Shown here: positions 25,387-43,747 of the stretch, piece after piece
How positions within the stretch are numbered: position 1 is the stretch's first letter
Layout of the letters: every line of letters begins with the position of its first letter
Assembly: GCF_024609765.1 (NCBI RefSeq)
Contig: NZ_JANFDG010000015.1
Location: 62,001 to 126,000 of the forward strand
From: Shinella pollutisoli
GTDB taxonomy: Bacteria; Pseudomonadota; Alphaproteobacteria; Rhizobiales; Rhizobiaceae
Length of the DNA: 64,000 bases
Direction of reading: 5' to 3'
Made by a program: the position numbers and the translations under genes
The notes under the pieces: model-generated
What the model saw: only the letters and a program-made list of their open reading frames with translations
What the model was told of the DNA's origin: nothing
Database searches by the model: none

Positions 25387-26328
25387 CTATCGCAGCCTGC
25401 CGCCCGCACCCGCGACGGAGAGGACGGCGATGATGACCACGCCCTGCAGGATGTCCTGGATGCCGTGGGGCAGGCCGGCGATCTGCAGGGTGGTGACGAT
25501 CATGACGAGGAGGATGCCGCCGTAGAGCGTGCCCATCGCCGTCGCGCTGCCGCCGGCGATCAGGGTGCCGCCGAGCACGACGGCGCCGACGGATTGCAGG
25601 AGATAGGGCGTCCCCATCTCCAGGAAGGCGCCGGCGGCGTAGCCGGAGAGCAGCATGCCGGTCGCCGCCGAGAGGATCGCGCTGACGACGAAGGTCGAGG
25701 CGACGATGCGGCCGGTGCGGATGCCGGTGAGGCGGGCCGCCTCGGCGCTCTGGCCGAGCGCCAGCAGCTTGCGCCCGTAGGCGGTGTAGCCGAGGAGCAG
25801 GCCGGTCGCGGCCGTGACGGCGACGGCGACGAAGAAGATCAGCGGGAAGCCGCCGATCCTGCCCGTCGCCACCCAGGCGAGGAGCGGCGGCGTTCCCATA
25901 CGGGTGACCATGGCGTTCACCATCAGCGTCAGCGAGGCGAGGATGTAGCCGGTCGCGAGCGTGGCGATCATCGCCGGGATGCGCAGGAGGACGACCAGCC
26001 CGGCATTGACGAGGCCTGTCGCGAGCGCCGTGCAGAGCACGGCGGCGAGTGCGGCCGGCAGGCCGGCATTGGTCCCGCCCGAGACGACGACGCAGACATA
26101 GGCGCTGAGCGTCACCGTGCTCGGGATCGACAGGTCGATGTTGCCGCGGCCGGTGGTGATCACCAGCATCTGGCCGAGTGCGGGGAAGATCAGGAAGGAG
26201 GCCGAGGTCGCCACGCCCGTCAGGCTGTAGATGCTGAACCGTTCGGTCAGCATCACGAGGGCCGCCCACAGGAGGAGGACGCCGGCGAGCGGCAGGATCC
26301 AGCGGCGCTCGGTGATGGAATCAAGCAT
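25387..26328 (-). CDS. Sugar ABC transporter permease (RbsC-like)
   Basis: 313 aa, ribose/xylose-class permease. It has about nine to ten hydrophobic segments, the TTGRGNIDLSIPS motif (GxIDLS hallmark of RbsC) and the C-terminal VLGGTLIAGGSATAMGTLYG. Its start overlaps the fused ATPase-permease stop by 8 bp, so the two permease units are made together and probably form a heterodimer. It is the last gene of the long minus-strand operon. Likely substrate is a branched sugar or sugar acid related to apiose. Confidence 0.88.
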   Translation of the reverse strand: MLDSITERRWILPLAGVLLLWAALVMLTERFSIYSLTGVATSASFLIFPALGQMLVITTGRGNIDLSIPSTVTLSAYVCVVVSGGTNAGLPAALAAVLCTALATGLVNAGLVVLLRIPAMIATLATGYILASLTLMVNAMVTRMGTPPLLAWVATGRIGGFPLIFFVAVAVTAATGLLLGYTAYGRKLLALGQSAEAARLTGIRTGRIVASTFVVSAILSAATGMLLSGYAAGAFLEMGTPYLLQSVGAVVLGGTLIAGGSATAMGTLYGGILLVMIVTTLQIAGLPHGIQDILQGVVIIAVLSVAGAGGRLR

Positions 26329-28801
26329 CGTTCTTCCTCCGGATGAGAAACGCCTGGAAGCCGAGGATCAGGATGAGCAGGCCGCCCTGCACGGCGGCGT
26401 TGAAGTCGGTGCTGACGCCGAGGGCGGCGAGCAGCGCGCCGATGAGCGAGAGCGTCACCGCGCCGGCGACGACGCCGGCCGGGGCGATCATGCCGCCGAG
26501 GAGCTGGCAGCCGCCCATCACCACCGCGGCGATGCTGAGCAGCGTGAAGGACGAGCTGGCATTGATGTCGCTCGCATTGTTGGTGGCCGTCACGTAGAGC
26601 CCGGCCGCCATGGCGAAGACGCAGGCGACGAGGTAGCGGCAGACGGCATAGCGCACGGGCGACCAGCCGGCGCGGGCGAGTGCGGCCGCATTGGCCCCGA
26701 AGCCGCGCAGGATCGTGCCCGTCGCCGAGCCGTCGATCAGGATCGCCGCGATGCCGGCAAGGAGGATGAGGACGAGCGGCGTCGGCAGGCCGGGGATGCT
26801 CCAGGAAAATAGCGCCGCCAGCCATTCCGGGCTGCTGCCGCCGGGCGAGGCCTGCAGCGTCTGCCCCGTGCCGATCCAGATGAAGGAGGCGCCGAGCGTC
26901 ACGACGATCGCCGGGATGGCGCGGGCCTGGATGAGGACGCCGATCAGCGCATAGCCCGCGAGGCCCGCGACGAGCGCCGCCGCGCCGAGCAGCGGGCTTG
27001 CGACCAGGAGCGTCGCGCTGATCACGTTGACGAGGCCGGTGAAGGCGCCGACGCCGAGGTCGATCTCGCTGCCGCCGACGACGAACATCTGCGCGAGCGC
27101 GATCAGCACCAGCGGCACGGCCGGCGCCAGAAGCAGTTCCAGGCCGAAGGAGGAGGCGACCAGCGGGTTCTGGATCGACATGGCGAGGAAGACGGCGACG
27201 AGGCTTGCGAAGGGGATGGCCTTCATGATCGCCGGGCCGATCCGCCGCGCCGGCGGGGGTCCGGCATCCGCCGCGCCGCCCGCTGCGGTCTGCTCGGCGA
27301 AGGACGAGGCGACGATCGCGTCCTCGTCGATCTCGGCCCCGCCCAGCTCGCGGATGATGCGGCCCTTCGAGAAGACGAGGACGCGGTCGCATTCGAGGAA
27401 TTCGAGGTCCTCCGTCGAGTACCAGATCACCAGCCGGCCGGATTGCGCGACGTCCTCCACCAGGCGGTAGAAGTCGCGCTTGGCGGCGATGTCGACGCCG
27501 CGCGTCGGGTCGTCGAGCAGCAGCACGTCGAAATCGTCCGCAAGCGCGCGGGCGACGAGCGCCTTCTGCTGGTTGCCGCCGCTGAGCTCCAGGATCTTCG
27601 AGCCGAAGCGGCTCTCGTCGAGGCGCAGGCGGCCGGCGAGCGAGGCGGCATGCGGCCGCTCGGCGGAATCGCGCACCGGCGCGAAGGGGCCGCGCGCGGC
27701 GATCCTGCCGATGGAGATGTTCTGGAGGACGGTCCAGAGCGGGAAGACGCCCTCGTTCGGGCGGTCGCCGGAGATGTAGCGCACCCGGCAGCCGGGCTTC
27801 AGGCCGCTCGCCTCCGGCCGGGAGAAGAGCGCGCGGAGCACGGCGCGCTGGCCGTTGCCCTCCAGGCCGGCGAGGCCGACGATCTCGCCGCGCCGCAGCC
27901 TCGGCGGGTCGATGCCGGCGGCGGTCCGTTTTCCGTCGAGCGTCGCGAGGATCTCGCCCTCGGCGGCCGTGCCCGTCCGCGCCTGCCGCTCGGGCCGGTC
28001 GCCGGCGCCGGGGCCGCCCATCGCCTCCACCATGTCGGGGACGGATGCCTTGGCCGCGCGCTCCTGCCAGACGATGCGGCCGTTGCGCATGGCGACGATG
28101 CGGTCCGAGACGTCGAGCACCTCCGCCAGCTTGTGACTGATGAAGATGGTGGCGAGCCCTTCCGCCGCCCGGCGGCGCACGTAGGCGCGCAGCTGCGCGC
28201 TGCGCTCGCTGCCGAGCGAGGAGGTCGGCTCGTCGAGGATGAGGAGGCGCAGCGCCGGATCGCTCGCCACGCGGGCGATCTCGACCATCTGCCGCTCCGA
28301 CAGGCTGAGATCGGCGACGAGGGCGCGCGTGGAGATGCGTGCGCCCGGGAAGATCGCCTCGATGCTCTCGCGCGCCAGCGTATGATAGGCGCCGCGCCAC
28401 AGGGGTCCGCGGCCCGCGAGCTCCGGGCGCTCGACGTAGAAATTGTCGGCGACGCTGAGGTTGGCGCAGAGCGACAGCTCCTGCCAGACGATGCGGATGC
28501 CCTGCCTCTGCGCGGTGCGCGCCGAGAAGGCATCGGGATCGAGCGCGGCGCCGTCCCAGTGCAGCGAGCCCTCGTCCGGCCGCGTCACGCCGCAGACGAT
28601 GCGCATCAGCGTGCTCTTGCCGGCACCGTTGGCGCCGATCAGGCCGACGATCTCGCCGGGCGCGATGTCGAGCGAAAGGTCGTCGTTGGCGCGGGTGCTG
28701 CCATAGGTCTTGCCGATGCCCCGCAGCGACAGGAAGGCGGGTTTCTCGCCGTCCGGCCTGAAGCCGTCCGTGTCCTGCGGGAGGGCGGTGTTCGCTTGCA
28801 T
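26321..28801 (-). CDS. Fused sugar ABC transporter ATPase-permease (RbsA-RbsC fusion)
   Basis: 826 aa. Residues 1 to about 505 are an RbsA-type tandem ATPase. The first half has Walker A GANGAGKST (56-64), signature region DLSLSERQMVEIARV and LLILDEPT. The second half has the usual degenerate Walker A (GLEGNGQRAV), an intact LSGGNQQKALVARAL and LLLDDPTRGVDIAAK. From about 525 an RbsC-type permease follows (QMFVVGGSEIDLGVGAFTGL, then VVMGGCQLLGGMIAP). These are normally separate proteins. The reading frame is open throughout, so it is a fusion rather than two genes. The start ATG 28801 follows GAAAGGACATGCC. Partners are the permease at 25387 and binding protein at 28874. Confidence 0.9.
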   Translation of the reverse strand: MQANTALPQDTDGFRPDGEKPAFLSLRGIGKTYGSTRANDDLSLDIAPGEIVGLIGANGAGKSTLMRIVCGVTRPDEGSLHWDGAALDPDAFSARTAQRQGIRIVWQELSLCANLSVADNFYVERPELAGRGPLWRGAYHTLARESIEAIFPGARISTRALVADLSLSERQMVEIARVASDPALRLLILDEPTSSLGSERSAQLRAYVRRRAAEGLATIFISHKLAEVLDVSDRIVAMRNGRIVWQERAAKASVPDMVEAMGGPGAGDRPERQARTGTAAEGEILATLDGKRTAAGIDPPRLRRGEIVGLAGLEGNGQRAVLRALFSRPEASGLKPGCRVRYISGDRPNEGVFPLWTVLQNISIGRIAARGPFAPVRDSAERPHAASLAGRLRLDESRFGSKILELSGGNQQKALVARALADDFDVLLLDDPTRGVDIAAKRDFYRLVEDVAQSGRLVIWYSTEDLEFLECDRVLVFSKGRIIRELGGAEIDEDAIVASSFAEQTAAGGAADAGPPPARRIGPAIMKAIPFASLVAVFLAMSIQNPLVASSFGLELLLAPAVPLVLIALAQMFVVGGSEIDLGVGAFTGLVNVISATLLVASPLLGAAALVAGLAGYALIGVLIQARAIPAIVVTLGASFIWIGTGQTLQASPGGSSPEWLAALFSWSIPGLPTPLVLILLAGIAAILIDGSATGTILRGFGANAAALARAGWSPVRYAVCRYLVACVFAMAAGLYVTATNNASDINASSSFTLLSIAAVVMGGCQLLGGMIAPAGVVAGAVTLSLIGALLAALGVSTDFNAAVQGGLLILILGFQAFLIRRKNDA

Positions 28802-28826
28802 GGCATGTCCTTTCAAGTCGCAAGAC

Positions 28827-28856
28827 GTCCCGCCGCCGCTTCCGCGACGGCGGGAC
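28827..28856 (-). terminator. Hairpin between binding-protein and ATPase-permease genes
   Basis: Perfect 9-bp stem GTCCCGCCG / CGGCGGGAC with a 12-nt loop in the 72-bp gap. It has no T-run on the minus strand. It is likely an mRNA-stabilising or attenuating structure that favours binding-protein synthesis. Confidence 0.55.
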
Positions 28857-28873
28857 CTCCATTGCTGCACGGC

Positions 28874-29914
28874 CTATTGCGCAGCCTTGACGAGATTCTC
28901 GTTCACCCATTCCTGGCTGAAGCTGGGGCTGATGATAAGACCCGGCTTCAGGTCCTTCGCCATTTCGGCGAGATTGCTCTCGTCGACGGTGGCGACCGGC
29001 ATGGTCATCTCCTTGGCCGGCGTCGCGCCCTTGACGATCTCGTAGGCCAGCCAGAAGGCTGCGCCGCCGATGCCGGGCGTCGTGTTCATCGAGGTGGTCT
29101 TGTAGCCCTTTTCGGCCTGCTCGGCCCACCAGATGACGAAGTCGGAGGAGCCGCCGCCCTCGATGACCGGCAGCTTCTCGGCATAGGGCCCGCCCGCCTG
29201 GACGAAGGCCTGGGCGATGCCATAGTCGTCGCTGCCGCCTTGGCCGAGGACCGCGTCGACCTGCGGCAGGCTCGGCAAGACGTTGGCGATCGCCGCCTGG
29301 GCGACGGAGGCCGTCGCCTGGCCGAACACCTCGGCGACGATCTTCACGTCCGGATTGGCGTCGAGCACGGCTTTCTGGGCGCTGTACATCAGGTTGTCGG
29401 GGCCGGAGCCCTTGACGCCGCGCACGACGATGACGTTGCCCTTGTTGCCGATCAGCTCCAGCGTCTTCTTCGCCTGCTCCGTCTTGTAGCCGGTGAAGTC
29501 GAACGACAGCTTGTAGGCGCAATCGGCCGTCAGCAGCGAATCGAAGGCGATGATCTTGATGCCGGCCGCGCAGGCCTTCTCGGCAAGGCCGTTCAGCGCC
29601 GTCTCCGAGGCGGCGTTGATGGCGATGGCATCGACGCCGCGCAGGATGAGCTCCGCCATCTGGCTGTTCTGCTGGTTGACGCTGCCGTCGCCGTTGAGGA
29701 CGACGAAGTCGGCGATCTTGCCCTCGGCCTTGGCCTTCTCCGCCTCGGCGGTGAAGGCGTCGACCATCTGGCGGCGCCAGGTGTTGCCGTAGAAGGAGTT
29801 CGACAGCGCGATCACCGGCTGGTCCGGCGAGGCGACGGCCGCCTGGGGCGCCAGCGCGAGCATCGAAATCGATGCCAGCCAGGCGAAGGTGAAGTTGCGA
29901 CGTGATGTGGACAT
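28874..29914 (-). CDS. Sugar ABC transporter substrate-binding protein (family 2)
   Basis: 346 aa. The signal peptide starts MSTSRRNFTFAWLASISML and is cleaved near AAVAS; the SRRNF is twin-arginine-like. The mature protein is a periplasmic binding protein of the RbsB/XylF class (VIALSNSFYGNTWRRQMVDA, a DAIAINAASETALNGL region, the DSLL hinge segment). GGGAGGTCTCC precedes the ATG. It serves the transporter encoded by the next two genes. It lies next to the 3-oxo-isoapionate kinase gene, so apiose, apionate or an oxidised relative are candidate ligands. Confidence 0.87.
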   Translation of the reverse strand: MSTSRRNFTFAWLASISMLALAPQAAVASPDQPVIALSNSFYGNTWRRQMVDAFTAEAEKAKAEGKIADFVVLNGDGSVNQQNSQMAELILRGVDAIAINAASETALNGLAEKACAAGIKIIAFDSLLTADCAYKLSFDFTGYKTEQAKKTLELIGNKGNVIVVRGVKGSGPDNLMYSAQKAVLDANPDVKIVAEVFGQATASVAQAAIANVLPSLPQVDAVLGQGGSDDYGIAQAFVQAGGPYAEKLPVIEGGGSSDFVIWWAEQAEKGYKTTSMNTTPGIGGAAFWLAYEIVKGATPAKEMTMPVATVDESNLAEMAKDLKPGLIISPSFSQEWVNENLVKAAQ

Positions 29915-29997: not shown

Positions 29998-31293
29998 TCA
30001 GATGTCGCGGACGATCGTGAAGTAGGCGTCGGTGCCCACCTGACCGCCCTTGAACGCGATTTCGAGTTCTTCTCCCTCCGTCTTCAGGAATGCGGTGCAC
30101 AGCGGCGAGCCGGGGCAACCCGGCAGCGGCGCCAGCAATTCGAGTGCCGATATCGACAGTTCCTTGATGGCATGGCTCGACGTGTCGCCGCCAGCGACGA
30201 CGACGCGCCCGAGGCCGTGGCGGCGGACGATCCCGGCGAGGATGCGGCCGAGCCCGCGGCCGATGGCGTGCCCGTCGATAGCGTCGGCCGCGTCGGCGCT
30301 GCCGAGCGCGGTGTAGAGGAGCGGGCTGCGGCCGGCGCCGAGTGCGGCGGCGGCCGCGTCGAGCGCCGCCCGGACCGCGGGCTCCGCCCCCTCAGCCAGG
30401 GCGGCCGGGTCGACGGGGATGCCCGCGAAGCCGTTTTCGAGCGCGTGGCGGATCTGCCGCGCGGTGGTCGGCGAGCAGCTGCCGGAGACGACGGCGATCG
30501 GCCCGCGGCCGCCCGGTCCCGGCACGGCCCGGACCTTGCCGCTGAGCGGCGTACCCGCGGCTTCCGCGACGAGCGCATATTCGACGCCGGAGGAGCCGGC
30601 GACGAAGCGGCAGTCCGATCGCAGCGACCAGAGGTGCCGGCCCGTCGCCGCCTTCGTCTCCTCGTCGAGCACGTCGAAGAGCAGGATGGCGTCCGCGTCC
30701 GCGCGCCGCGACAGCTCCTCCGGCGGCAGGCCGTTCTTGAGGCGCAGGAAGTCGACGAGGCCGATGGATTTTTCCGTCTGGCGCCCGAGGTGGATGCGCA
30801 GGTCCGCCTCGTCCATCGGCGTCACGGGATGGCGGCGCATCACCGGGTGCCGGTCGATCCGGAAGATGTCGGGGCCGAAATGGGCGAAGAGGTTGCCGAA
30901 GGCCGTGTAGCGCTGGAGCTCGGGCGCGCCGACGACGAGCGGCGTGCAGGCCTGCCCGAAGACGGCGGCGGCGATGTCGATGGCCCGGCCGATGCTGCCG
31001 ACCGCGGGGCTGGAATCGAAGGTCGAGCAGACCTTGTAGTGGCAGAGTGCTGCGCCCGACTCCTTCATCCAGGCGAAGACCGGAGGCAGGTGCGCGTCCA
31101 TCCAGGCGGGCGTCTCGCTGCGGCTGGTACCGGCGATGCCGACCGCCCTGCGGCCGGGGAAGCGGGCGGCCTCCTCGGCCGTCGGGATGCCGGTGAAGAG
31201 GATCGTCGGCGTGCCGCGGGTGGCGAGCGCCTCCATCACGTCGGTGGAGCCCGTCAGGTCGTCGCCGTAGTAGCAGAGCAGCAGCCCGGTCAC
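29998..31293 (-). CDS. oiaK: 3-oxo-isoapionate kinase-like (DUF1537 four-carbon acid sugar kinase family)
   Basis: 431 aa. The N-terminal domain begins LLLCYYGDDLTGSTD, the DUF1537 sugar-binding signature (residues 10-18). The C-terminal nucleotide-binding domain carries VVAGGDTSSHA near 365-373 and ends KGGQVGTDAYF. This family phosphorylates C4-C5 keto acids; OiaK makes 3-oxo-isoapionate 4-phosphate in the D-apiose pathways described by Carter and colleagues (2018). The GTG start at 31293 overlaps the lactonase stop (GTGA). Neighbours ApnL, ApdH and ApnO make the OiaK reading far likelier than erythronate or threonate kinase. Confidence 0.82.
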   Translation of the reverse strand: MTGLLLCYYGDDLTGSTDVMEALATRGTPTILFTGIPTAEEAARFPGRRAVGIAGTSRSETPAWMDAHLPPVFAWMKESGAALCHYKVCSTFDSSPAVGSIGRAIDIAAAVFGQACTPLVVGAPELQRYTAFGNLFAHFGPDIFRIDRHPVMRRHPVTPMDEADLRIHLGRQTEKSIGLVDFLRLKNGLPPEELSRRADADAILLFDVLDEETKAATGRHLWSLRSDCRFVAGSSGVEYALVAEAAGTPLSGKVRAVPGPGGRGPIAVVSGSCSPTTARQIRHALENGFAGIPVDPAALAEGAEPAVRAALDAAAAALGAGRSPLLYTALGSADAADAIDGHAIGRGLGRILAGIVRRHGLGRVVVAGGDTSSHAIKELSISALELLAPLPGCPGSPLCTAFLKTEGEELEIAFKGGQVGTDAYFTIVRDI

Positions 31294-33068
31294 GCGGCGC
31301 CTCCCCGGCGATGTTGCGCGATGCCGTAGGGGCCGAGCTCCAGCGTCGCGCCGTCGACGGCGACGCGGCGTGCGGCGGGCGTGATGTTGGCGACGAGGAG
31401 CGTATCGCCGCCGCCGAGCGCCAGCACCCGCGCCGGGTCGGAACTCTCGACGCCGAGGGCCTCGCTTCCGGCGAGCGCGGCGAGCCATTGCGCGGCCTTG
31501 AAGGCGGGAAGCCGCGTTCCGGCGTCGAGCAGGCCGAAGGGACCGGCGAGGCTGCCGAGCGACAGCACGTCGAGGGAGGCGCCGGCCGTGGCGGCGGCAT
31601 AGCCGACCATCCAGGCGGCGGCGAAATCCGTCGCCTGACGCGGGTCGTCGGCCGTCATCGTCATCCGCCGGTTGTCGGGATTGGCGTTGAGCGACGCGCC
31701 GTAGGGATTGCCGCGCATGCCGATCGCCGACGGGCCGATGCGGTAGGGCATGTCGCCCGCGAAGGCGCGCACGGAGGCGGTGATGAAGGGCAGGGCCTCC
31801 AGCGTCTCCATGACGCTGCGGTCGTCGGCGGCATGCACCAGCGGCGAGGTCGTGTGGGTGATGAAATCCAGCATTCCGACGGGAGGGCGCTTGCGGTTGA
31901 GCTCGGTGAAATAGCTGAACATGCCGCCGCCGAGCGGCAGGTCGGGGAAGGCCGCCCGCGCTGCGGCATAGACCTCGGCGAGCGGCGGGCAGGCCGGCCA
32001 GGCGCTGCCGGGCGGCGTCGACTTCAGGTCCGGCGCCGGGCTGACGGCGATCGCGGAGAGGCGCAGATCCGCCGCGCGGACCATCCGGGCGGCCTCCTGC
32101 AGCTCGTCCGCCGGCAGGGCGCGGCAGGGCAGCACGTATTCCAGCGTCGCCTCGGCCGGATAGGCCGCAAGCAGCCGGGCGTAGCCTTCGAGGACGGCGC
32201 CGTCGTGGCCCGCGAGCGGATCGAAGGCGAGGATCAGATGCTGCGGCGCGACCGCCCGCAGCGCCTCGATATTGTCGAGCGTCTCCGCAAGCTCCTGCGG
32301 GCTGATGCCGAGGCCGAAGGCGGGCACGCGGCCGGCCGCGGGGCGGATCGAAAGGCGGATCGCCTCGTCCGGCCGCGCGGGTCTCGGGATCGTGTCCGGC
32401 TCGCCGCTGAGGAGGACGGTGACGGTCTGGCGGAGGGGCACGCCGCTTTCGAGCGTGTAGGGCCAGGGCAGGGCGAGCGGGCGGACATAGGTCTTGTAGG
32501 AGGCGTCCGACCAGTTGCGCTGGTCCTCCATCTCGAACGTGTCGCCCTCCATGCGGCAGAGCGCCGTCATGCCGGGGGCGATCGCGTGGGTGATGGCGCG
32601 GATGTCGAAGAACGGCTGGGCCGGCTCGATGGCGAGCGGGAAATGCGATTGCTCCAGGCTGCCGTCCGTGTGCTCGACCGTGACCGGCTGCCCGGCCACG
32701 CCGACGATCGGATGCAGCACGCAGAAGCCGCAGCGGTTGGTGCGGAAGTCGCCCTCGGGCACGGCCTCGGCGTCGAAGACGAGCTTTCCGCCGGCGCTGC
32801 CGGTGATGTGGACGTCGACGGCGAGGCGCGCGTCGCCGTCCGTGCATTCCGCCCGGTAGCGCACGGAGAAGTCGGCCTTCGTCTCCTCGACGGTCAGGCC
32901 GGAGATCTGAAGCGCGTGGTTGCCCCAGTTCGCGTCCCGCACGAGATAGGCGATGGCGCGGATCGCCTCGTTGCCATGCCAGCGCAGGGCGCGCAGGTTG
33001 CCGTCCTCCAGCTCGACGGAAAGCGGGCCGGCGGAAAGGATGCGGGCGGCGTGCACGGGCTGCTCCAT
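31290..33068 (-). CDS. apnL: D-apionate lactonase
   Basis: 592 aa. The protein begins with a beta-rich region keyed by LRALRWHGNEAIRAIAYLVR and then a TIM-barrel-like part (SIRPAAGRVPAFGLGISPQE, GGGMFSYFTELNRKRPP, THTTSPLVHAADDRSVMETL). This large, distinctive family is the D-apionate lactonase ApnL, which opens D-apionolactone to D-apionate. No signal peptide is seen, so it acts in the cytosol on the product of the dehydrogenase encoded immediately upstream (1 bp gap). The gene order ApdH-ApnL-OiaK follows the reaction order. Confidence 0.87.
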   Translation of the reverse strand: MEQPVHAARILSAGPLSVELEDGNLRALRWHGNEAIRAIAYLVRDANWGNHALQISGLTVEETKADFSVRYRAECTDGDARLAVDVHITGSAGGKLVFDAEAVPEGDFRTNRCGFCVLHPIVGVAGQPVTVEHTDGSLEQSHFPLAIEPAQPFFDIRAITHAIAPGMTALCRMEGDTFEMEDQRNWSDASYKTYVRPLALPWPYTLESGVPLRQTVTVLLSGEPDTIPRPARPDEAIRLSIRPAAGRVPAFGLGISPQELAETLDNIEALRAVAPQHLILAFDPLAGHDGAVLEGYARLLAAYPAEATLEYVLPCRALPADELQEAARMVRAADLRLSAIAVSPAPDLKSTPPGSAWPACPPLAEVYAAARAAFPDLPLGGGMFSYFTELNRKRPPVGMLDFITHTTSPLVHAADDRSVMETLEALPFITASVRAFAGDMPYRIGPSAIGMRGNPYGASLNANPDNRRMTMTADDPRQATDFAAAWMVGYAAATAGASLDVLSLGSLAGPFGLLDAGTRLPAFKAAQWLAALAGSEALGVESSDPARVLALGGGDTLLVANITPAARRVAVDGATLELGPYGIAQHRRGGAA

Positions 33069-34104: not shown

Positions 34105-34115
34105 GCCGTCCGTCC

Positions 34116-35962: not shown

Positions 35963-37479
35963 GCGCGCATCTCCGTTGCGCCGGCAAGGCCGGTCGCGGC
36001 TGTCATGATGGCCTCGCGGTCGAAGTCGCCGCGCGCGAAGCTGCCGGTCAGCTCGCCGCGGCTGATGGTGAGGATGCGGTCCGACAGGCCGATCAGCTCC
36101 TCGATCTCCGAGGAGATGAGCAGCACGGCGCTGCCGGCCTCCACCAGGCCGTTGACGATGCGGTAGACCTCCTGCTTGGCGCCGACGTCGATGCCGCGCG
36201 TCGGCTCGTCGAGGATGAAGAGGCGCGGGCGGCGGCGCAGCCACTTGCCGATGACGACCTTCTGCTGGTTGCCGCCCGAAAGATGCTTGACCAGCGTGTC
36301 GTCGACCTTCGTCGTCGAAAGGTGCATGGCGCGGCCCATGTCGGCCGCGACGGCGCTGATCCGGCCGCGGTCGATCAGCCCGAGCGCGCCGGCGACCGTC
36401 GGCAGCGAGGCGAGCACCATGTTCTCGGCGATGGTGAAATCCATGATCAGGCCCTCGCCGCGGCGGTCCTCGGTCAGGAAGGCGACGCCTGCGGCCATCG
36501 CCGTCGCCGGCGTCGGATCGACGAGCGGTTTGCCGTCGATGCGGATCTCCCCGCGCGCGAAGCGGTCGAGGCCGAACAGCATGCGGGCGAGCTCCGAGCG
36601 GCCGGAGCCCATCAGGCCGGCAAGGCCGACGACCTCGCCGGCGCGGATCTCGAAGCCGATGTCCTTCGCGACGCCCGGCTGGCTCAGCCCCGAGACGGAG
36701 AGGACGACGTCGTCCTTGGGCTTTACCGACCGTTCGGGATAGATGGCGTCGATCGACCGGCCGACCATCAGCGCGATGATGCGCTGCACGTCGATCTCGC
36801 CCCGTGCGGCGCTGCCGGCGACGTGGCCGTCGCGCAGCACGGTGATGTCGTCGCAGACGGCCATCACGTCCTCCAGCGCGTGGCTGATGTAGATGATGCC
36901 GATGCCGCGGGCTTTCAGCCGGGCGATGATGGCGAAGAGGCGCTCGACCTCCGGGCGCGTCAGCGAGGTGGTCGGCTCGTCGAAGATGATGAGCCGCGCG
37001 TTGCGCGACAGCGCCTTGGCGATCTCGACCAGCTGCCGCTCGCCCTGGCTGAGCTTGGAGACCGGGGTCGAGGGGCGGTGCGGGAGATCGACCTGGGAGA
37101 GGAGTTCCTCGGTCTGGCGGCGGATGCGGGCGCGGTTGATGAAGGGCAGGACGCCTCGGTGCGGGAAGCTGTCGATGAAGAGGTTCTCCTCGATCGTCAG
37201 GTTCGGGAAGAGGTTGAGCTCCTGGTGGATGAAGGCGATGCCGGCGGCCGTCGCCTCCTTCGGACTGGCGGGCGCATAGGGCACGCCGTCGAGCCGCATG
37301 CTGCCGGCGCTCGGCTGGTGGATGCCGCCGAGGATGTTCATGCTGGTCGACTTGCCGGAGCCGTTCTCGCCGACGAGCCCGAGCGCCTTGCCCTTCTCGA
37401 CCGAGAAGCCGACGCCGTGCAGCACGGTGACGCCGAAGAAGGATTTGGTGAGGCCCTCGACCTCGAGAAGCGTTGCCAT
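35959..37479 (-). CDS. Sugar ABC transporter ATP-binding protein (RbsA-like)
   Basis: 506-aa tandem ATPase. The first domain has Walker A GENGSGKST (with a Gly-rich ENG variant), signature LSQGERQLVEIAKAL and LIIFDEPTTSL. The second has the normal degenerate Walker A (GLMGSGRSEL), LSGGNQQKVVIGKWL and LFILDEPTRGIDVGAK. This is the usual RbsA/XylG arrangement in which one site is catalytically strong. It energises the permeases encoded on either side. Confidence 0.92.
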   Translation of the reverse strand: MATLLEVEGLTKSFFGVTVLHGVGFSVEKGKALGLVGENGSGKSTSMNILGGIHQPSAGSMRLDGVPYAPASPKEATAAGIAFIHQELNLFPNLTIEENLFIDSFPHRGVLPFINRARIRRQTEELLSQVDLPHRPSTPVSKLSQGERQLVEIAKALSRNARLIIFDEPTTSLTRPEVERLFAIIARLKARGIGIIYISHALEDVMAVCDDITVLRDGHVAGSAARGEIDVQRIIALMVGRSIDAIYPERSVKPKDDVVLSVSGLSQPGVAKDIGFEIRAGEVVGLAGLMGSGRSELARMLFGLDRFARGEIRIDGKPLVDPTPATAMAAGVAFLTEDRRGEGLIMDFTIAENMVLASLPTVAGALGLIDRGRISAVAADMGRAMHLSTTKVDDTLVKHLSGGNQQKVVIGKWLRRRPRLFILDEPTRGIDVGAKQEVYRIVNGLVEAGSAVLLISSEIEELIGLSDRILTISRGELTGSFARGDFDREAIMTAATGLAGATEMRA

Positions 37480-37488
37480 TCGTCCCTC

Positions 37489-38526
37489 CTACCGGTTGAC
37501 GAGCAGGTGGTGGCGGAAGGTGTCGACCGTCGCCGCGAGCAGGATGACGCCGCCCTTGATGATGTAGATCATGAACAGCGAGGAGCCGAGCAGCTTCATC
37601 GACGTGTCGATCAGGAGCAGGAAGAGCACGCCGAACACGGTCCAGACGATCTTGCCCTTGCCGCCGAAGAGGCTGGTGCCGCCGATGACGACGGCGCCGA
37701 TCACGTCGAGCAGGATGTTCTCGCCGGCGATCGGCGAGCCGGTCTGCATGCGCGAGGCATACATCATCGCCGCGACGGAGGCGCAGGCGCCGCTGATCAG
37801 GAAGGTCAGCATGATCGTGCGGCCGACCGGCACGCCGGAGATGCGCGCGGCGGCGGGGTTGGCGCCGACCGCATAGACCCAGCGGCCGAACTGCGTGCGC
37901 GACAGCAGGACATGCGCCGCAACGCCGATGGCGAAGGCGAGCGCCACCGTATAGGGCACGCCGAGCACCGAGCCGGTGGCGAAGGCGGTGAAGCTCGCCG
38001 GAAGGTCGGCGATCGACGACGAGGTGGAATGGAACGTCACGTACCAGATCGCCAGCCCCGCGAAGAACATGCGCGTGGCGAGCGTGACGATGAAGGACGG
38101 CATGTTGAGCCTGACGACGGAGAGCCCGTTGATCGCGCCCACCGCCACGCCGACGGCGAGCATCGCCAGGATCGCCGCGGGAACGGCGACGGCCGAGCCG
38201 GAGAGATAGCCGTTCGTGCCCGTCATCACCGAGGCGCCGACGACGGCGGCCATGGAGATGATCGCGGTGATGGAGAGGTCGATGCCGGCGATGATCAGCA
38301 CGAAGGTCTGGCCGATCGCCACGACCAGCAGCGGCATCATGTCGCCGAGGATGTTGGAGGCGACCTGCCAGGTGAGGATCTCGGGCACGAAGGGATAGAT
38401 CGCCGCGACGTAGACGACGCAGAGGACGAGGACGAAATATTCGGACAGCAGGAGCTTCGCAAGCCGCAGGGCCCTCGGCCTGTCGGCCGGGGCGGCGGGC
38501 GTGTCCGTTGACGCTGAAGGTGACAT
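37489..38526 (-). CDS. Sugar ABC transporter permease (RbsC-like)
   Basis: 345 aa with a ~25-residue Ala/Pro-rich cytosolic start and about ten hydrophobic segments. It has the LIIAGIDLSITAI motif and VIGGTSLFGGKGKIVWTVFG near the C terminus. Nine bases separate it from the ATPase gene. A 12-bp hairpin lies in the 148-bp gap to the binding-protein gene upstream. Confidence 0.9.
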   Translation of the reverse strand: MSPSASTDTPAAPADRPRALRLAKLLLSEYFVLVLCVVYVAAIYPFVPEILTWQVASNILGDMMPLLVVAIGQTFVLIIAGIDLSITAIISMAAVVGASVMTGTNGYLSGSAVAVPAAILAMLAVGVAVGAINGLSVVRLNMPSFIVTLATRMFFAGLAIWYVTFHSTSSSIADLPASFTAFATGSVLGVPYTVALAFAIGVAAHVLLSRTQFGRWVYAVGANPAAARISGVPVGRTIMLTFLISGACASVAAMMYASRMQTGSPIAGENILLDVIGAVVIGGTSLFGGKGKIVWTVFGVLFLLLIDTSMKLLGSSLFMIYIIKGGVILLAATVDTFRHHLLVNR

Positions 38527-38674: not shown

Positions 38675-39682
38675 TCAGCCCGGGTTCTTCTCCTTCCAGA
38701 GGACGTAGCCCCACATTTCGGGCGCCTTCTCCTCCATGTTCGCCTGGGTGATGGCGAAGCCCGGATCGAGCAGCAGGCGGTCGACCTCCTTGCCCTCCTG
38801 CAGGTCGAGGATCGCCTGGATGGCGAGCTCGGTCTCGTAGAAGAGGTTCTGCACGCCGCAGGCATCCATGTAGCCGTCCTTCATCAGCGCGTAGGCGTCC
38901 GGGAAGCCGTCGAAGCCGGTGAAGATGACGTGGCCGTCCTCGCCGACCTTGTGCCACTTGTCCGCCGACTTCAGCGCCTGCTGGATCTGCGGGATCAGGA
39001 AGTCGGAGGAGGTGAAGAGGAACGAGATGTCCGGGTTGGCCTGCAGCGCGTTGGTGAGGCCCGCAAACGCGGTGTCGGCGTTCCATTCGGTCGGGATCTT
39101 GGCAACCACCTCGATCGTGTCGGCGAACTGCGCGACCGCCTCCTCGAAGCCGTCGCGGCGCTGGATGGCGTTCGGGTCGCCGAGGTCGCCGATCAGGATC
39201 GCGGCCTTGTGCTTCTTGCCGGACTGCTTGGCCACCTCGCAGGCATAGGTCACGGCGTCGCGGGCGATCTTCTGGTTGTCGGCCTGGATGGCGACGGAGA
39301 AGGCGTCGGTCTTGGCCGGCGGGCGGTTGAAATGCACCATCGGGATCTTGGCGTCGTTTGCCGCCTTGATCGCCGGGATGACCGCATTGGAGTCCGTCTG
39401 GACGATGATGATGCCGTCGACCTTGCGGGCGATGGCGGCGCGGACCTGCTCGAACTGCTTGTTGTCGTCCTGGTCCGAGATCGCCTCCATGATCTCGAAG
39501 CCGCGCTTCTTCAGGTCCTCGCGGATGATCTGGATGCCGGCGACCCAGAATTCCGAATAGAGGCCGTCGAAGAGGACGGCGATCGTCTTGGTGCCCTGCG
39601 CGCGCACGGCGAGCGTCATGCCGCTCGTCGCCGCGAGCCCCGCCAGGGTGGCCACGGTGAATTCTCGTCTTGTCAGTGCCAT
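38675..39682 (-). CDS. Sugar ABC transporter substrate-binding protein, probably D-apiose
   Basis: 335 aa. The signal peptide MALTRREFTVATLAGLAATS contains a TRREFT twin-arginine motif, so Tat export is likely; cleavage is near VRAQ. The mature domain is RbsB-like (TIAVLFDGLYSEFWVAGIQI, a DGIIIVQTDSNAV segment, TGFDGFPDAYALMK). GGGAGGAGAACGCA precedes the ATG. It is the first gene of the minus-strand apiose operon and lies directly under the promoter with the GntR operator, so apiose or a close relative is the probable ligand. Confidence 0.88.
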   Translation of the reverse strand: MALTRREFTVATLAGLAATSGMTLAVRAQGTKTIAVLFDGLYSEFWVAGIQIIREDLKKRGFEIMEAISDQDDNKQFEQVRAAIARKVDGIIIVQTDSNAVIPAIKAANDAKIPMVHFNRPPAKTDAFSVAIQADNQKIARDAVTYACEVAKQSGKKHKAAILIGDLGDPNAIQRRDGFEEAVAQFADTIEVVAKIPTEWNADTAFAGLTNALQANPDISFLFTSSDFLIPQIQQALKSADKWHKVGEDGHVIFTGFDGFPDAYALMKDGYMDACGVQNLFYETELAIQAILDLQEGKEVDRLLLDPGFAITQANMEEKAPEMWGYVLWKEKNPG

Positions 39683-39765: not shown

Positions 39766-39794
39766 ACGTTAGGTCATCATATAAGTAATGTCAA
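39766..39794 (-). promoter_or_regulatory. Promoter of the apiose operon
   Basis: On the minus strand, TTGACA (39794-39789) is followed after exactly 17 bp by TAACGT (39771-39766). The -35 is a perfect consensus. The spacer contains the motif ACTTATATGATGAC, which is the GntR operator candidate, so repressor binding would block RNA polymerase. Confidence 0.65.
39773..39786. promoter_or_regulatory. Candidate GntR operator, site 1
   Basis: GTCATCATATAAGT. It matches site 2 (40637-40650, inverted: GTCATCATATGAGT) at 13 of 14 positions. The two sites flank the GntR gene: this one lies between the -35 and -10 of the minus-strand promoter, the other before the RuBisCO-like operon. Binding by the encoded GntR protein is inference. 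Confidence 0.65.
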
Positions 39795-39876: not shown

Positions 39877-40590
39877 ATGGAGCCTGTTCAGAAAAAGAAG
39901 CTTTACGTCGAGGTGCTCGACAGGCTGATGGACGCCATCTCGACGTCCGAGTTCCCGCCCGGCTCGCAGCTTCCCTCGGAGAAGGAGCTGATGAACATGA
40001 TCGGCGTCGGCCGCCCGTCGATCCGCGAGGCCATGCTGGCCCTGCAGCAGATGGGGCTGATCAAGATCTCGCACGGCGAGCGCGCCCGGGTGATCAACCC
40101 GACGCCGGACGTCATCGTCGACCAGATCTCGGCGGCGATGATCATGATGCTGGCGACGAACCCGCGCGGCTTGCAGGAGCTGAAGGAGGTGCGCCTGCTG
40201 CTCGAGACCGGCCTCGTGCGCGTGGCGACGCGGCGGGCGACGGCGCGCGACCTGGAGCGCCTCGCCGAATCGATCCGCCAGCTCCAGGAGGCGCGCGGCG
40301 ACCAGACGAAGTTCGTCGCGGTGGACATGCAGTTCCACGCCATCATCGCCGAGATGAGCGGCAACTCGATGATCGCCGCCGTGTCGAAGGGCATGCTCGA
40401 CTGGCTCTCGCGCTTCAAGCGCGACCTCGTCGCGCTGAAGGGCGCGGAACGGCTGACCATCGAGGAGCACGAGCGCATCTACAAGGCGATCGCCGCCGGC
40501 GACGCGGAGGCGGCCGCGACGGCCATGGCCGAGCATATCGACCGGGCGAACGAGCTCTATTCCAAGCTGAAGACCAGCTCCCAGGGCTGA
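39877..40590 (+). CDS. GntR/FadR-type (FCD) transcriptional regulator of the apiose locus
   Basis: 237 aa from the ATG at 39877 (GGAG 6 bp upstream); an in-frame ATG at 39835 is an alternative. The winged helix spans about 5-75 (LPSEKELMNMIGVGRPSIRE). The FCD effector domain follows, with the motif DMQFHAIIAEMSGNSM and, near the C terminus, EHERIYKAIAAGD plus the MAEHIDRA histidine, the usual metal-binding set. It sits between the two halves of the apiose locus, divergent from one and upstream of the other, with matching operator candidates on both sides. A repressor relieved by a pathway acid is the simplest reading. Confidence 0.88.
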   Translation: MEPVQKKKLYVEVLDRLMDAISTSEFPPGSQLPSEKELMNMIGVGRPSIREAMLALQQMGLIKISHGERARVINPTPDVIVDQISAAMIMMLATNPRGLQELKEVRLLLETGLVRVATRRATARDLERLAESIRQLQEARGDQTKFVAVDMQFHAIIAEMSGNSMIAAVSKGMLDWLSRFKRDLVALKGAERLTIEEHERIYKAIAAGDAEAAATAMAEHIDRANELYSKLKTSSQG

Positions 40591-40636: not shown

Positions 40637-40650
40637 ACTCATATGATGAC
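40637..40650. promoter_or_regulatory. Candidate GntR operator, site 2
   Basis: ACTCATATGATGAC, an inverted near-copy of site 1, lies 58 bp before the RuBisCO-like gene start. It contains the palindrome TCATATGA. A TTGTCC at 40624-40629 could be the -35 of this promoter. Confidence 0.62.
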
Positions 40651-40708
40651 ATGAACTCTTTTTGGTGCTAATTGCTCCTCCATCGTAAGGTCAGTGCCAG
40701 GAAGTGCC

Positions 40709-41989
40709 GTGCAATCCCGAATCGTCGCCACCTATCTCGTCGAGACGCGCTATCCGCTGGAGGCCGCCGCCGCGGCCATGGCCGGCGAGCAGTCGAGCGG
40801 CACGTTCCGCCCCGTCCCGGGCGAGACGCCCGAGCTTCTGAGCCGCTATGGGGCGCGGGTCGAGGCGATCGAGGACCTGGGCGAGGCGGACGCGCAGGCG
40901 CTGCCGTTCTCGCGGCCGCCCTTGGGCGATCCGTCCGCCCGGCCGCGGCGCGCCCGCGTCACGCTCTCCTGGAACCTCGACAACACGGGGACGATCCTCT
41001 CCTCGGTCTGGTCGACGGTGCTCGGCAATCTCTTCGAGCTCCATCACTTCTCGGCGATGAAGCTCGTCGACCTCGTCCTGCCGGATGCCTTCGCCGACGC
41101 CTATCCGGGTCCGGCCTTCGGCGTCGAGGGCACGCGCCGGCTGGTGGGCGTCTCTGGGCGGCCCGTCATCGGCACGATCATCAAGCCGAGCGTCGGGCTG
41201 ACGGTCGAGGCGACGGCGGAGCTCGCCGACACGCTGATTTCGGCGGGGCTCGACTTCATCAAGGACGACGAGCTGATGGGCGATCCGCCGCATTCGCCCT
41301 TCGCCGCCCGCTTCGGCGCGGTGATGGACGTGATCGACCGCCACGCCGACCGGACCGGGCGCAAGGCCATGTTCGCCGCCAACATCTCCGGCGACATCGA
41401 CCAGATGCGCCGCCGGCTCGACCTGATCGAAAAGCGCGGCGGCACCTGCGCCATGCTCGTGCTCAATTCGGTCGGCCTGCCGGGCGTGGCGGAGGTGCGG
41501 CGCCATTCCTCGGTCGCCATCCACGGGCACCGGGCGGGCTGGGGCCTCTTCAGCCGCTCGCCCGACCTCGGCGTCAGCTACACCGCCTACCAGAAGTTCT
41601 GGCGCGTGGCGGGCGTCGACCACATGCATGTCAACGGCCTGTCGAACAAGTTCTGCGAGCCGGACGAATCGGTCGTCGCCTCGGCGCGCGAGTGTTTGAC
41701 GCCGATGTTCTCGCGTCCCGACCGGCCGGACACGGTGATGCCGGTCTTCTCCTCGGGTCAGTCGGCCGTGCAGGCGGAGGCGACCCATGCGGCGCTCGGC
41801 TCCTGCGACCTGATCTATTGCTGCGGCGGCGGCATCATGGCGCATCCGGGCGGCGTCGCCGCCGGCGTGCGCAGCCTCCGCGAGGCCTGGGAGGCGGCGG
41901 CCGCCGGCATCCCGGCCCGGGACCACGCCGCCACCCACCCCGACCTCAAGGCCGCGCTCGAGACGTTCGGCCGCGGCGCGGGCCGATGA
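40709..41989 (+). CDS. oiaX: RuBisCO-like protein acting on 3-oxo-isoapionate 4-phosphate
   Basis: 426 aa from a GTG at 40709 with AGGAAG upstream (GTG 40694 is an alternative). The RuBisCO large-subunit fold keeps the carbamylation/metal motif KDDE (K185-D187-E188), the loop lysine K159 (GTIIKPSVGL) and a loop-6 lysine K314 (GLSNKF). The phosphate-site region differs (SSGQSAVQAEA, CCGGGIMAHPGG), so it is a RuBisCO-like protein, not a CO2-fixing enzyme. In apionate pathways two such proteins are known: one decarboxylates 3-oxo-isoapionate 4-phosphate; the other cleaves it by transcarboxylation/hydrolysis to 3-phosphoglycerate and glycolate (OiaX/OiaT). I cannot tell which from sequence. No tetrulose-phosphate isomerase is nearby, which mildly favours the second. 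Confidence 0.82.
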   Translation: MQSRIVATYLVETRYPLEAAAAAMAGEQSSGTFRPVPGETPELLSRYGARVEAIEDLGEADAQALPFSRPPLGDPSARPRRARVTLSWNLDNTGTILSSVWSTVLGNLFELHHFSAMKLVDLVLPDAFADAYPGPAFGVEGTRRLVGVSGRPVIGTIIKPSVGLTVEATAELADTLISAGLDFIKDDELMGDPPHSPFAARFGAVMDVIDRHADRTGRKAMFAANISGDIDQMRRRLDLIEKRGGTCAMLVLNSVGLPGVAEVRRHSSVAIHGHRAGWGLFSRSPDLGVSYTAYQKFWRVAGVDHMHVNGLSNKFCEPDESVVASARECLTPMFSRPDRPDTVMPVFSSGQSAVQAEATHAALGSCDLIYCCGGGIMAHPGGVAAGVRSLREAWEAAAAGIPARDHAATHPDLKAALETFGRGAGR

Positions 41990-42053: not shown

Positions 42054-42899
42054 ATGACGACTTCGGTGGCACTGCTCGGCGCGGGAGGGAAGATGGGCTT
42101 CCGCGTCACCCGCAAACTGATCGACGCGGGCTACGACGTCCGCGCGGTCGAGATCGGCGAGGCCGGCCGCGCGCGGCTCGCGGAGGCCGGCATCAAGGCC
42201 GTCTCCATGGAGGAGGGCATCCCCGGTGCAGAGGTCGTCGTCATGGCGCTGCCCGACAACGTGATCGGCAAGGTCGCGCGGCAGATCTCGCCGATGCTGC
42301 CCTCCGGCGCGATGCTGCTCATCCTCGATGCCGCCGCCCCCTATGCCGACGACCTGCCGAAGGACCGTCCGGACCTCACCTATTTCGTCGGCCATCCGTG
42401 CCATCCGCCGCTGTTCAACGACGAGACCGAGTGGGACGCCCGCCGCGACTATCACGGCGGCATCGCCAAGCAGTCGATCGTCTGCGCGCTGATGCAGGGG
42501 CCGGAGGAGCACTACGCGCTCGGCGAGGAGATCTGCAAGGCGATGTGGTCGCCGATCATCAACAGCTACCGCGTCAGCGTCGAGCAGCTGGCGATCCTGG
42601 AGCCCGGCCTGTCGGAGATGGTCGCCATGCCCTTCGTCGACACGATGGTGGAGGCGGTCGAGGAGTGCGAGAAGAAATACGGCATTCCCCGGCAGGCGGC
42701 GCTGGATTTCCTGATCGGTCACCTCAATGTCGAGATCGCCATGTGGTTCGGCTATTCGCCGAAGGTGCCCTCCGACGCGGCGCTGCGGCTGATGCGCTTC
42801 GCCAAGGGGGTCGTCGTCAAGGACGACTGGCGCGAGGCGCTTTCGCCGGCGAAGGTCAAGGAGGCCTCCGAGCTCATCGTCCACGGCAAGGGGGCCTGA
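42054..42899 (+). CDS. apnO: D-apionate oxidoisomerase-like protein, copy 2
   Basis: 281 aa. It has the same two-domain layout as the gene at 34116: GAGGKMG at the NAD site, HPCHPPLFNDETEWDARRDY, EQLAILEPGLSEM and a VVKDDWREAL C-terminal segment. The two proteins are clearly homologous but far from identical, so this is an old duplication or separate acquisition. It lies between the RuBisCO-like and decarboxylase-like genes. It may serve as the second oxidoisomerase, or handle a stereoisomer or a related branched acid. AGGGAGAGAGACACG precedes the ATG. Confidence 0.78.
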   Translation: MTTSVALLGAGGKMGFRVTRKLIDAGYDVRAVEIGEAGRARLAEAGIKAVSMEEGIPGAEVVVMALPDNVIGKVARQISPMLPSGAMLLILDAAAPYADDLPKDRPDLTYFVGHPCHPPLFNDETEWDARRDYHGGIAKQSIVCALMQGPEEHYALGEEICKAMWSPIINSYRVSVEQLAILEPGLSEMVAMPFVDTMVEAVEECEKKYGIPRQAALDFLIGHLNVEIAMWFGYSPKVPSDAALRLMRFAKGVVVKDDWREALSPAKVKEASELIVHGKGA

Positions 42900-42901
42900 T
42901 C

Positions 42902-43747
42902 CTGTCCGCGTCCCCGCGCATCGTCTCGGTCTCGACGGCGCTCTTCGACGGCTATTCCATGGCGGAGGCCGTCGAGGAGATCGCCCGTGCCGGCGGCCGC
43001 CATGTCGAGCCGGCCTTCATCAAGGGCTATGTCGATTTCGACGAGGACGCCTTCTCGGCCGCCGCGGCGCGGCGCCTCCACCGCCTCGTCGCGGGCAGGG
43101 GGCTTTCCGTCCATGCGGTCTCCGCGCATCTCGACCTGTCGCGGCCGGGCGCGGCCGAGGATTTGATCCGGCGGATCGGCTTCGCCGCCGACCTCGGCGC
43201 CGCCTTCCTGATCACCAATTCCGGACCCGCCGGGGAGCGGGACGCAATCCGCGCGACGATAGAGGCGGCCCTTCCGAGGCTGGACGCGGCCGGGCTCACG
43301 CTCGCCCTCGAAAACCCGGGCCACGGCAGCGGCAACCTCACCGGCACGGTCGCTGCGGCCGCCGCGTTCCTGCGCGCCGTCGGATCGCCGCGCGTGCGGC
43401 TCAACCACGACACGGGCAATGTCTTCACCTACAGCGGCGAACGGTGCCAGCCGGCGGAGGACTACGCCGCTGCGCCCGACATCGTCGCGCATGCGCATCT
43501 GAAGGACGTGCGCTCCGCGGGCGGCGACTGGGTGTTCTGCGCGCTCGGGGCCGGCGACGTCGCGTTTTCCGACTACTGGAAGGCCGTTCCCGCCGGCCTG
43601 CCGGTGAGCATCGAGCTGCCGCTGCGCCTCGACCGCCCGGGACGGGCGGACCCGCGCCGGCGGCCGGAACCCCTCTCCATCGAGGCGATCCGGCACGATC
43701 TTTCGGCATCGATCGGCTATATCGAGAGGCTGGAAGCGGCCCGATAG
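42902..43747 (+). CDS. oiaC: 3-oxo-isoapionate decarboxylase-like (xylose-isomerase-type TIM barrel)
   Basis: 281 aa if started at the CTG at 42902, 7 bp after AAGGGGG. The first in-frame ATG (42959) would delete the opening strand IVSVSTALF, so a non-ATG start is needed. The AP-endonuclease-2/xylose-isomerase barrel shows metal ligands in LALENPGHG (Glu), LNHDTGN (Asp), HAHLKDV (His) and SIELPL (Glu). OiaC converts 3-oxo-isoapionate to L-erythrulose without phosphorylation. Its position behind oxidoisomerase and RuBisCO-like genes supports that role, but epimerases and isomerases share this fold. The first codon lies 2 bp past the oxidoisomerase stop. Confidence 0.72.
   Translation: MSASPRIVSVSTALFDGYSMAEAVEEIARAGGRHVEPAFIKGYVDFDEDAFSAAAARRLHRLVAGRGLSVHAVSAHLDLSRPGAAEDLIRRIGFAADLGAAFLITNSGPAGERDAIRATIEAALPRLDAAGLTLALENPGHGSGNLTGTVAAAAAFLRAVGSPRVRLNHDTGNVFTYSGERCQPAEDYAAAPDIVAHAHLKDVRSAGGDWVFCALGAGDVAFSDYWKAVPAGLPVSIELPLRLDRPGRADPRRRPEPLSIEAIRHDLSASIGYIERLEAAR

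Follow-up and report, generated by a model that had tools for sequence, protein, structure and literature searches.

An apparently co-regulated gene cassette of Shinella pollutisoli that may divide D-apiose/D-apionate catabolism between two routes

The DNA analysed here is a stretch of 64,000 nucleotides from Shinella pollutisoli (assembly GCF_024609765.1, contig NZ_JANFDG010000015.1, positions 62,001 to 126,000; hereafter the window), whose genome comprises 5.22 Mb in 79 contigs. A first-pass annotation had described positions 25387-43747 of the window as a complete D-apiose/D-apionate catabolic locus with two arms. Pfam and NCBIfam searches found 15 genes there, arranged in two divergent operons, and all the gene families that had been named are present with strong Pfam matches. 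From its sequence, the locus is a conserved variant of the known apiose/apionate pathways, with two routes that are apparently regulated together. We consider it somewhat better than an even bet that it is a mobile cassette that splits one intermediate between the two routes; in this reading the substrates, the reactions, the role of the regulator and the mobility are deduced from the genes present, their linkage and clades, the conserved motif and residues, and the limits of the locus.

The operon on the minus strand contains, in order, the periplasmic sugar-binding protein SBP1 (38675..39682; PF13407, E = 4e-45), a permease (37489..38526; PF02653), an ATPase (35959..37479; PF00005) and another permease (34982..35962; PF02653) of a first ABC importer, the predicted type 1 D-apionate oxidoisomerase ApnO1 (34116..34943; PF16896, E = 4e-74; 5t57, 453 bits), an ApdH-like Gfo/Idh/MocA dehydrogenase (33070..34104; PF01408 and PF22725, GFO_IDH_MocA E = 9e-24; its start was chosen within a longer frame, 33070-34332), the D-apionate lactonase ApnL (31290..33068) and a DUF1537-type, OiaK-like kinase (29998..31293; PF07005 and PF17042, SBD_N/NBD_C, E = 1e-48 and 8e-32), which may be a 3-oxo-isoapionate kinase. 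It ends with a second importer, made up of the sugar-binding protein SBP2 (28874..29914; PF13407, Peripla_BP_4; 4pe6, 210 bits), a fused ATPase-permease (26321..28870; PF00005 and PF02653 in a single 849-aa frame) and a permease (25387..26328; PF02653 or BPD_transp_2, E = 9e-24).

The operon on the plus strand contains a NanR-like GntR/FCD regulator (39877..40590; PF00392 and PF07729, with the start chosen from the sequence), a RuBisCO-like protein (RLP; 40694..41989; PF00016, RuBisCO_large, E = 4e-64), the predicted type 2 oxidoisomerase ApnO2 (42054..42899; PF16896, E = 1.5e-61; 3c24, 422 bits) and a xylose-isomerase-like TIM barrel protein (42896..43747; PF01261, AP_endonuc_2, E = 4e-20), a candidate OiaC-like decarboxylase. 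A gene for a GGDEF protein lies downstream, at 43874.

The assignment to apionate is carried first by ApnL, which passes the cut-off of the NCBIfam equivalog model NF049900 (781 versus 750 bits, over residues 6-571 of 592). This model is matched in 12/12 genomes searched and passed in nine of them; the match of genome G439, which has an RLP of the window's type, is below the cut-off at 733 bits. ApnO1 and ApnO2 are both PGDH_C-type dehydrogenases, and their position in an apionate locus suggests that both are oxidoisomerases. The ApdH-like protein matches the Gfo/Idh/MocA family and reaches no NCBIfam equivalog cut-off.

The kinase matches the OiaK model NF042436 best, at 444 bits, and the model for 3-oxo-tetronate kinase, NF043035, at 170 bits (cut-off 350). 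In a tree of 108 rows it belongs to a clade of 16 (Shimodaira-Hasegawa-like approximate likelihood-ratio test, SH-aLRT, 100), consisting of eight kinases associated with the window's type of RLP, designated class a below, and eight from OiaX loci. The two scores and the clade together rule out a tetronate kinase, and the grouping with tetronate pathways that could have overturned the first-pass annotation was not found; its apiose/apionate assignment is thereby favoured. The kinase falls short of the OiaK cut-off of 700 bits; kinases adjoining RLPs that pass the OiaX model also miss it (443 and 466 bits), and the cut-off is therefore uninformative here. None of the 14 kinases scored reached it, the best being that of the Ancylobacter genome G077 with 590 bits.

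The locus is a discrete unit. When the window was compared by blastn with a 41-kb stretch of plasmid pA of Sinorhizobium (S.) meliloti LMB1, the main match covered window positions 25387-43655 at 82% identity, in agreement with the ends first annotated; the other three matches were short cross-matches between paralogues within the locus, and nothing of the window outside the locus aligned with the pA stretch. The fifteen proteins are 71-96% identical between the two. Among 72,556 plasmid records searched by megablast, pA was the only plasmid with a single place covering at least 80% of the locus. Because the block recurs on this plasmid with nothing beyond it aligning, it seems that the cassette moves between genomes.

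The two arms recur together in a defined group of loci. In the RLP tree (115 of 119 rows, after removal of rows contained in another, as was likewise done for the kinase tree and for an ApnO tree of 86 rows), the window RLP falls into a clade of ten rows, class a (SH-aLRT 100), which borders on a large RLP set termed group b. For 10/10 class-a rows an OiaC-like gene, that is, a homologue of the gene for the window's TIM barrel, lies in the locus. ApnO2 in turn belongs to a clade of its own with 13 rows (SH-aLRT 100, branch 1.22), in which an OiaC-like gene is found in the same locus in 13/13 cases, the window included. The trees are quick IQ-TREE trees with SH-aLRT support only and no outgroup; long-branch attraction may affect the OiaX clade and row L165, and the kinase tree contains long rows outside the focal clade.

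Counting the own genome, OiaC-like matches were obtained in 5/297 genomes of the order, 11/199 of the family and, at a stricter profile limit, 4/398 of the phylum. In nine of the 11 family genomes, representing nine genera, identity was at least 45%, and in 9/9 of these the gene had both ApnO2 and a class-a RLP as companions; for the remaining two genomes (40% and 31% identity) the examined stretches contained no RLP. A scan of genome contigs of close relatives with the OiaC-like protein gave no confirmed match. Plasmid coverage was 5 of 21 records for OiaC-like matches, plus locus L003 reached through the RLP search, and 4 of 366 for RLPs. Some arrangements are looser than that of the window: the OiaC-like gene and the RLP are about 20 kb apart in G829, and the kinase lies in a separate OiaX locus in G372 and in a separate ApnO1-ApdH-ApnL-OiaK operon in G376. 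In G105 the RLP-ApnO2-OiaC-like triad is about 15 kb from an OiaX locus whose kinase is the genome's only kinase match. Among the best 80 of 550 confirmed RLP matches on genome contigs, ranked against an Ancylobacter RLP, one locus, L110 (from a metagenome-assembled genome of Chelativorans), has an RLP, the kinase, ApnO2 and an OiaC-like gene; its RLP is of group b, and it is apparently a separate assembly of the gene set. Co-encoding of both routes is rare in the sampled genomes and conserved within one clade, and, judged by gene linkage, the two arms are one unit.

A shared operator-like motif, GTCATCAYATRWGT, is associated with this unit. It occurs in the divergent promoter region between the operons (site 1, 39773..39794, plus strand) and, inverted, just upstream of the RLP gene (site 2, 40637..40650, minus strand). 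With at most one mismatch, 8/10 class-a loci have two sites each, and each of the remaining two has a single site. In L055 a copy directly precedes ApnO2, at the place where TRAP transporter genes part ApnO2 from the RLP, and in G376 a copy precedes the unlinked ApnO1-ApdH-ApnL-OiaK operon. The motif was absent from seven comparison stretches of the OiaX, OiaC-only and group-b types, of which L049 and L188 represent the same region of contig C24 of the S. pollutisoli genome. In its 22-base form the motif matches the window once and 100 shuffles not at all. When up to five mismatches were allowed, the 2.88 Mb of fetched loci gave 10 hits, compared with an average of 0.28 and a maximum of 2 for 60 shuffled motifs; as the motif was derived from loci in which it was later counted, these numbers measure its rarity elsewhere and are not an independent discovery. 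It is probable that the GntR/FCD protein binds the putative sites, and the two arms, which the first-pass annotation had rightly taken to be encoded together, are apparently co-regulated. In L055 (7572-10434) and L057 (7.0-9.8 kb) the TRAP genes are inserted between the RLP and the ApnO2-OiaC-like pair; they were recognised by eye from the translations in L055, and are presumed in L057 from gene sizes and place.

OiaC is a xylose-isomerase-family decarboxylase of D-apionate degradation. The TIM barrel protein of the window fits this description as a xylose-isomerase-like barrel with a putative four-ligand metal site: E139, D172, H201 and E240, which we take to be metal binders by analogy with ketose 3-epimerases, are invariant in 14/14 of its relatives. 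It has no sequence match in PDB and none in NCBIfam. A predicted structure (mean predicted local distance difference test score 78.7, falling below 50 at residues 141-148 and 246-252; built from two sequences only) bears out the barrel and resembles ketose isomerases and 3-epimerases, a likeness that does not separate a decarboxylase from an epimerase. The protein is thus named OiaC-like by context. Of the names first proposed, OiaK stands by family and context with its cut-off missed, and OiaC by family and context.

A Dak kinase is present in 8/10 OiaC-like loci without a class-a RLP (fetched stretches L059-L061, L069-L073, L226 and L227; the count excludes L110, whose RLP is of group b and which lacks a Dak match, as well as two matches in G015 and one in G382 that are weak, at 29-31%, and lie in loci of about 3 kb), which fits erythrulose as the product. 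Distant OiaC-like homologues sit with Dak kinase genes, and some with genes for a TRAP transporter, a transketolase or LerI- or RpiB-type proteins. On the window's contig, searches with Dak1 and TIM-family profiles found neither an erythrulose kinase nor a LerI/DerI-type isomerase, so that the locus cannot be called complete; elsewhere in the genome there are four Dak1 matches and, on contig C26, a LerI/DerI-type pair. The erythrulose enzymes would then act in trans in this genome.

The best-surviving alternative, which we nevertheless regard as unlikely, is that the xylose-isomerase-type protein acts within the RLP route, as an isomerase or epimerase and not as an independent decarboxylase. 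The predicted fold is compatible with it, as are the linkage to class-a RLPs in 9/9 family genomes at 45% identity or more and the lack of a Dak kinase in the fetched class-a stretches. It is opposed by the distant homologues that keep company with Dak kinase and, in some cases, with LerI- and RpiB-type genes, and by the ApnO2-TIM pair itself, which also occurs without an RLP; for the latter reason we rejected the gene as a mere part of the RLP route, while retaining that idea as a rival. In G247 the pair lies in a locus without an RLP, the RLP and kinase being on another contig. G228 has no RLP match at all; it has ApnL-like (631 bits, short of the cut-off), ApdH-like and OiaC-like genes, a Dak kinase and a single ApnO, which is of the ApnO2 type.

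Several loci with distant OiaC-like genes have further contents. On two Rhizobium plasmids (L070, 5662-14509; L071, 3658-11857) such genes are accompanied by an enzyme of the 6-phosphogluconate/3-hydroxyisobutyrate dehydrogenase type, an alpha/beta hydrolase, TRAP genes and Dak subunits, a set that, from a Pfam run on L070, may represent another acid pathway. On a Klebsiella variicola plasmid (L073, 2488-14511) a homologue of about 30% identity is found with genes for a triose-phosphate-isomerase-family protein, a Dak kinase, an RpiB-type protein, a transaldolase, a transketolase, an MFS transporter and a 2-hydroxyacid dehydrogenase.

The substrate has to be considered in the light of a second locus in the same genome. 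Contig C24 carries an RLP that scores 784 bits with the OiaX model, above its cut-off, together with an ApnL (823 bits), a kinase, a Gfo/Idh enzyme, an ApnO and a binding protein that matches 5ibq and 4ry0 at 548 and 547 bits; 5ibq is presumably a structure solved with apiose. On these matches, the genome already carries an OiaX apiose locus. ApnO1 of the window is 89% identical to the C24 ApnO and clusters with the ApnOs of OiaX loci, and the ApdH-like protein is 65% identical to the C24 Gfo/Idh enzyme. A third ApnO gene (C67:16052-16876, L238), 82% identical to ApnO1, lies beside a DctP-type TRAP binding protein; both ApnL matches of the genome lie away from it, and it may mark a locus for uptake of D-apionate only.

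It is rather improbable that the cassette degrades another branched sugar or acid, such as D-hamamelose, through apiose-family enzymes with shifted specificity. The presence of the C24 locus speaks for this, since SBP1 is only 28% identical to the C24 binding protein, and so does the functional diversity of RLPs, which includes an oxygenase according to PMC10176493, a paper that lists RLP functions and cites the hamamelose RLP oxygenase. PMC8914248 gives a phenotype for a rhizobial RLP mutant and lists a hamamelose RLP paper among its references. The D-hamamelose pathway, compared by description only, has in common with the window an RLP in branched-sugar catabolism; the window differs in its ApnL equivalog, which points to apionate. 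The identities of ApnO1 (89%) and the ApdH-like protein (65%) to their C24 counterparts also argue against another substrate, as do the triad of G105, which has no adjoining kinase and lies near the OiaX locus holding that genome's only OiaK, and a plasmid locus in which a non-OiaX RLP and a kinase lie among pectin-type glycosidase genes.

The best NCBIfam match of the RLP is the OiaX model NF042437, and it falls below the cut-off (438 versus 700 bits). It also lies outside the OiaX clade, which has seven rows, SH-aLRT 100 and a branch of 1.61; both of the clade's members that were scored, two in number, pass NF042437. In 31/31 aligned RLPs outside the OiaX clade, E32, N112 and H312 are kept, which we take from the alignment to be Rubisco E60, N123 and H327 in spinach numbering; the same positions are D, G and Q in 7/7 OiaX-clade rows. 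These are among 75 positions at which class a (at least 9/10) and the OiaX clade (7/7) have each fixed a different residue. K164, K190, D192, E193, H279 and R280 are invariant across the alignment of 38 rows, of which 30 were compared first and the remaining eight checked afterwards. Where the KPK motif of Rubisco has its second catalytic lysine, presumably K177 in spinach numbering, the aligned RLPs have S or N, or A in the OiaX clade, with serine (S166) in 23/23 rows of class a and group b. A true Rubisco of forms I-III is rejected by this replacement and by the score against the form III model (241 bits versus a cut-off of 497).

LerI and DerI genes are expected for the product of OiaX. Both are found near 4/7 OiaX-clade genes and near 0/107 other RLPs, with probes from OiaX locus L051 and flanks of up to 20 kb (Fisher p = 5e-6, a guide only because the rows are related). 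That the RLP is a diverged OiaX, a simple decarboxylase by which both arms would end at erythrulose or its phosphate, is the least probable of the alternatives: it is favoured by the best model match, by the OiaX-associated clade of the kinase and by LerI/DerI linkage that is partial even among OiaX-type loci, and is opposed by the missed cut-off, the separate clade, the differently fixed positions, the 0/107 count and the canonical OiaX locus lying separately on C24, for which reasons OiaX was rejected and kept only as a rival.

Because the OiaX model, clade, active-site residues and LerI/DerI linkage do not fit the RLP, an OiaT-like chemistry of the transcarboxylase/hydrolase type is preferred. 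The first-pass label 'OiaX/OiaT' would thus lose its first half, and the second is the one we favour. The NCBIfam output for the RLPs scored contained no OiaT model, and the RLPs of Xanthobacter (X.) autotrophicus and Agrobacterium (A.) radiobacter K84 are not in the best 80 of 550 RLP loci. The kinase and ApnO1 thus side with OiaX-type loci while the RLP stands apart, which makes the locus a mosaic by sequence relationship.

Taken as a two-route cassette, the locus may work as follows. The sugar or the acid would enter through the two ribose-type ABC importers; ApdH would convert D-apiose to the lactone, ApnL the lactone to D-apionate, and ApnO1 or ApnO2 D-apionate to 3-oxo-isoapionate. In route A, the OiaK-like kinase would phosphorylate this intermediate and the class-a RLP would cleave the product, most likely in the manner of OiaT, whose products are 3-phosphoglycerate and glycolate, and not by decarboxylation as with OiaX. 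In route B, the OiaC-like TIM barrel would decarboxylate unphosphorylated 3-oxo-isoapionate to erythrulose, which kinases and isomerases from other parts of the genome would pass on. A single GntR/FCD regulator, acting at the two conserved sites, could control both routes.

Several observations weigh against this scheme. The kinase and the RLP both miss their equivalog cut-offs (444 and 438 versus 700 bits), which is uninformative for the kinase. OiaK of at least 57% identity is found in 9/9 class-a genomes searched, a count that is weak evidence because 11/12 genomes searched hold OiaK, including two without a class-a RLP at 56%. An epimerase would also be compatible with the predicted fold of the TIM barrel, and in G228 a 31% kinase match adjoins the ApnL-like gene, so that a divergent kinase step is possible there. 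A Dak kinase is present in 0/10 class-a loci, as represented by the fetched stretches and, for the window, by its contig, in contrast to the OiaC-like loci that lack such an RLP. The low identity of SBP1 to the C24 binding protein means that the cassette could serve a related substrate. Two OiaX-type loci added later, L228 and L230, lack LerI and DerI, which reduces the linkage to 4/9 and has slightly lowered our confidence. Finally, the names OiaT-like and OiaC-like are drawn from context and residues.

Relative to the OiaK/OiaT pathway of X. autotrophicus, to which it is likened by description and not by OiaT sequence, the window has in common an ApdH-like enzyme, ApnL, ApnO, an OiaK-like kinase and a non-OiaX RLP; it adds a second oxidoisomerase and the OiaC-like gene, its RLP forms a clade of its own, and its kinase is OiaX-associated. 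With the OiaK/OiaX pathway of A. radiobacter K84 it shares the upstream enzyme families, but its RLP is outside the OiaX model and clade, the locus has no LerI/DerI, and the binding protein and regulator are different. With the OiaC pathway it shares ApnO2 and the OiaC-like barrel, which elsewhere occur in RLP-free loci with SBP1-type importer genes (L060 and L061); it differs in merging the kinase/RLP route and in having no linked erythrulose kinase.

According to a review (PMC6302742), the A. radiobacter K84 RLP decarboxylates 3-oxo-isoapionate-4-phosphate and that of X. autotrophicus carries out transcarboxylation/hydrolysis. An OiaX-type gene set is present in strain LCG007 (PMC11747546), and Enterobacteriaceae have a different apiose pathway, as described in PMC13001218. 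At the level of titles and abstracts, with Carter 2018 outside the comparison, we noticed no published account of a locus that combines the two routes in the literature searched.

The proposed scheme is of consequence in several respects. An RLP and an unrelated decarboxylase that share an operator and compete for the same intermediate would make it directly testable how carbon is economised in branched-sugar catabolism, and the clade defines RLPs that keep most of the Rubisco active-site residues and yet are unlike the known decarboxylase. The catabolic modules (ApnO2 with the OiaC-like gene; kinase with RLP) are joined into one unit that is found on a plasmid too. More tentatively, the bacterium may encode three ways of handling the intermediate (the OiaX of C24, the class-a RLP and the OiaC-like protein), the last two co-induced, with the class-a RLP performing a further Rubisco-type reaction, either transcarboxylation or a CO2- or O2-dependent cleavage. 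If so, the balance between RLP and OiaC would set the carbon kept as 3-phosphoglycerate and glycolate against the CO2 lost with erythrulose. Apiose itself is an abundant sugar of the plant cell-wall polysaccharides rhamnogalacturonan II and apiogalacturonan.

Some minor observations concern neighbouring and related genes. Window positions 22130-25280, which adjoin the cassette but lie beyond the block shared with pA, encode another GntR/FCD regulator and a dimethylformamidase beta-like protein (DMFA2_C). High-scoring matches to the fused 849-aa ATPase-permease recur elsewhere, both among the other class-a loci and in several loci with a group-b RLP. On a Croceibacterium plasmid (L005, 1-31251), an RLP and a kinase lie among genes for alpha-L-fucosidase, beta-galactosidase, beta-L-arabinofuranosidase-domain and GH28 proteins, a set that resembles one for rhamnogalacturonan breakdown.

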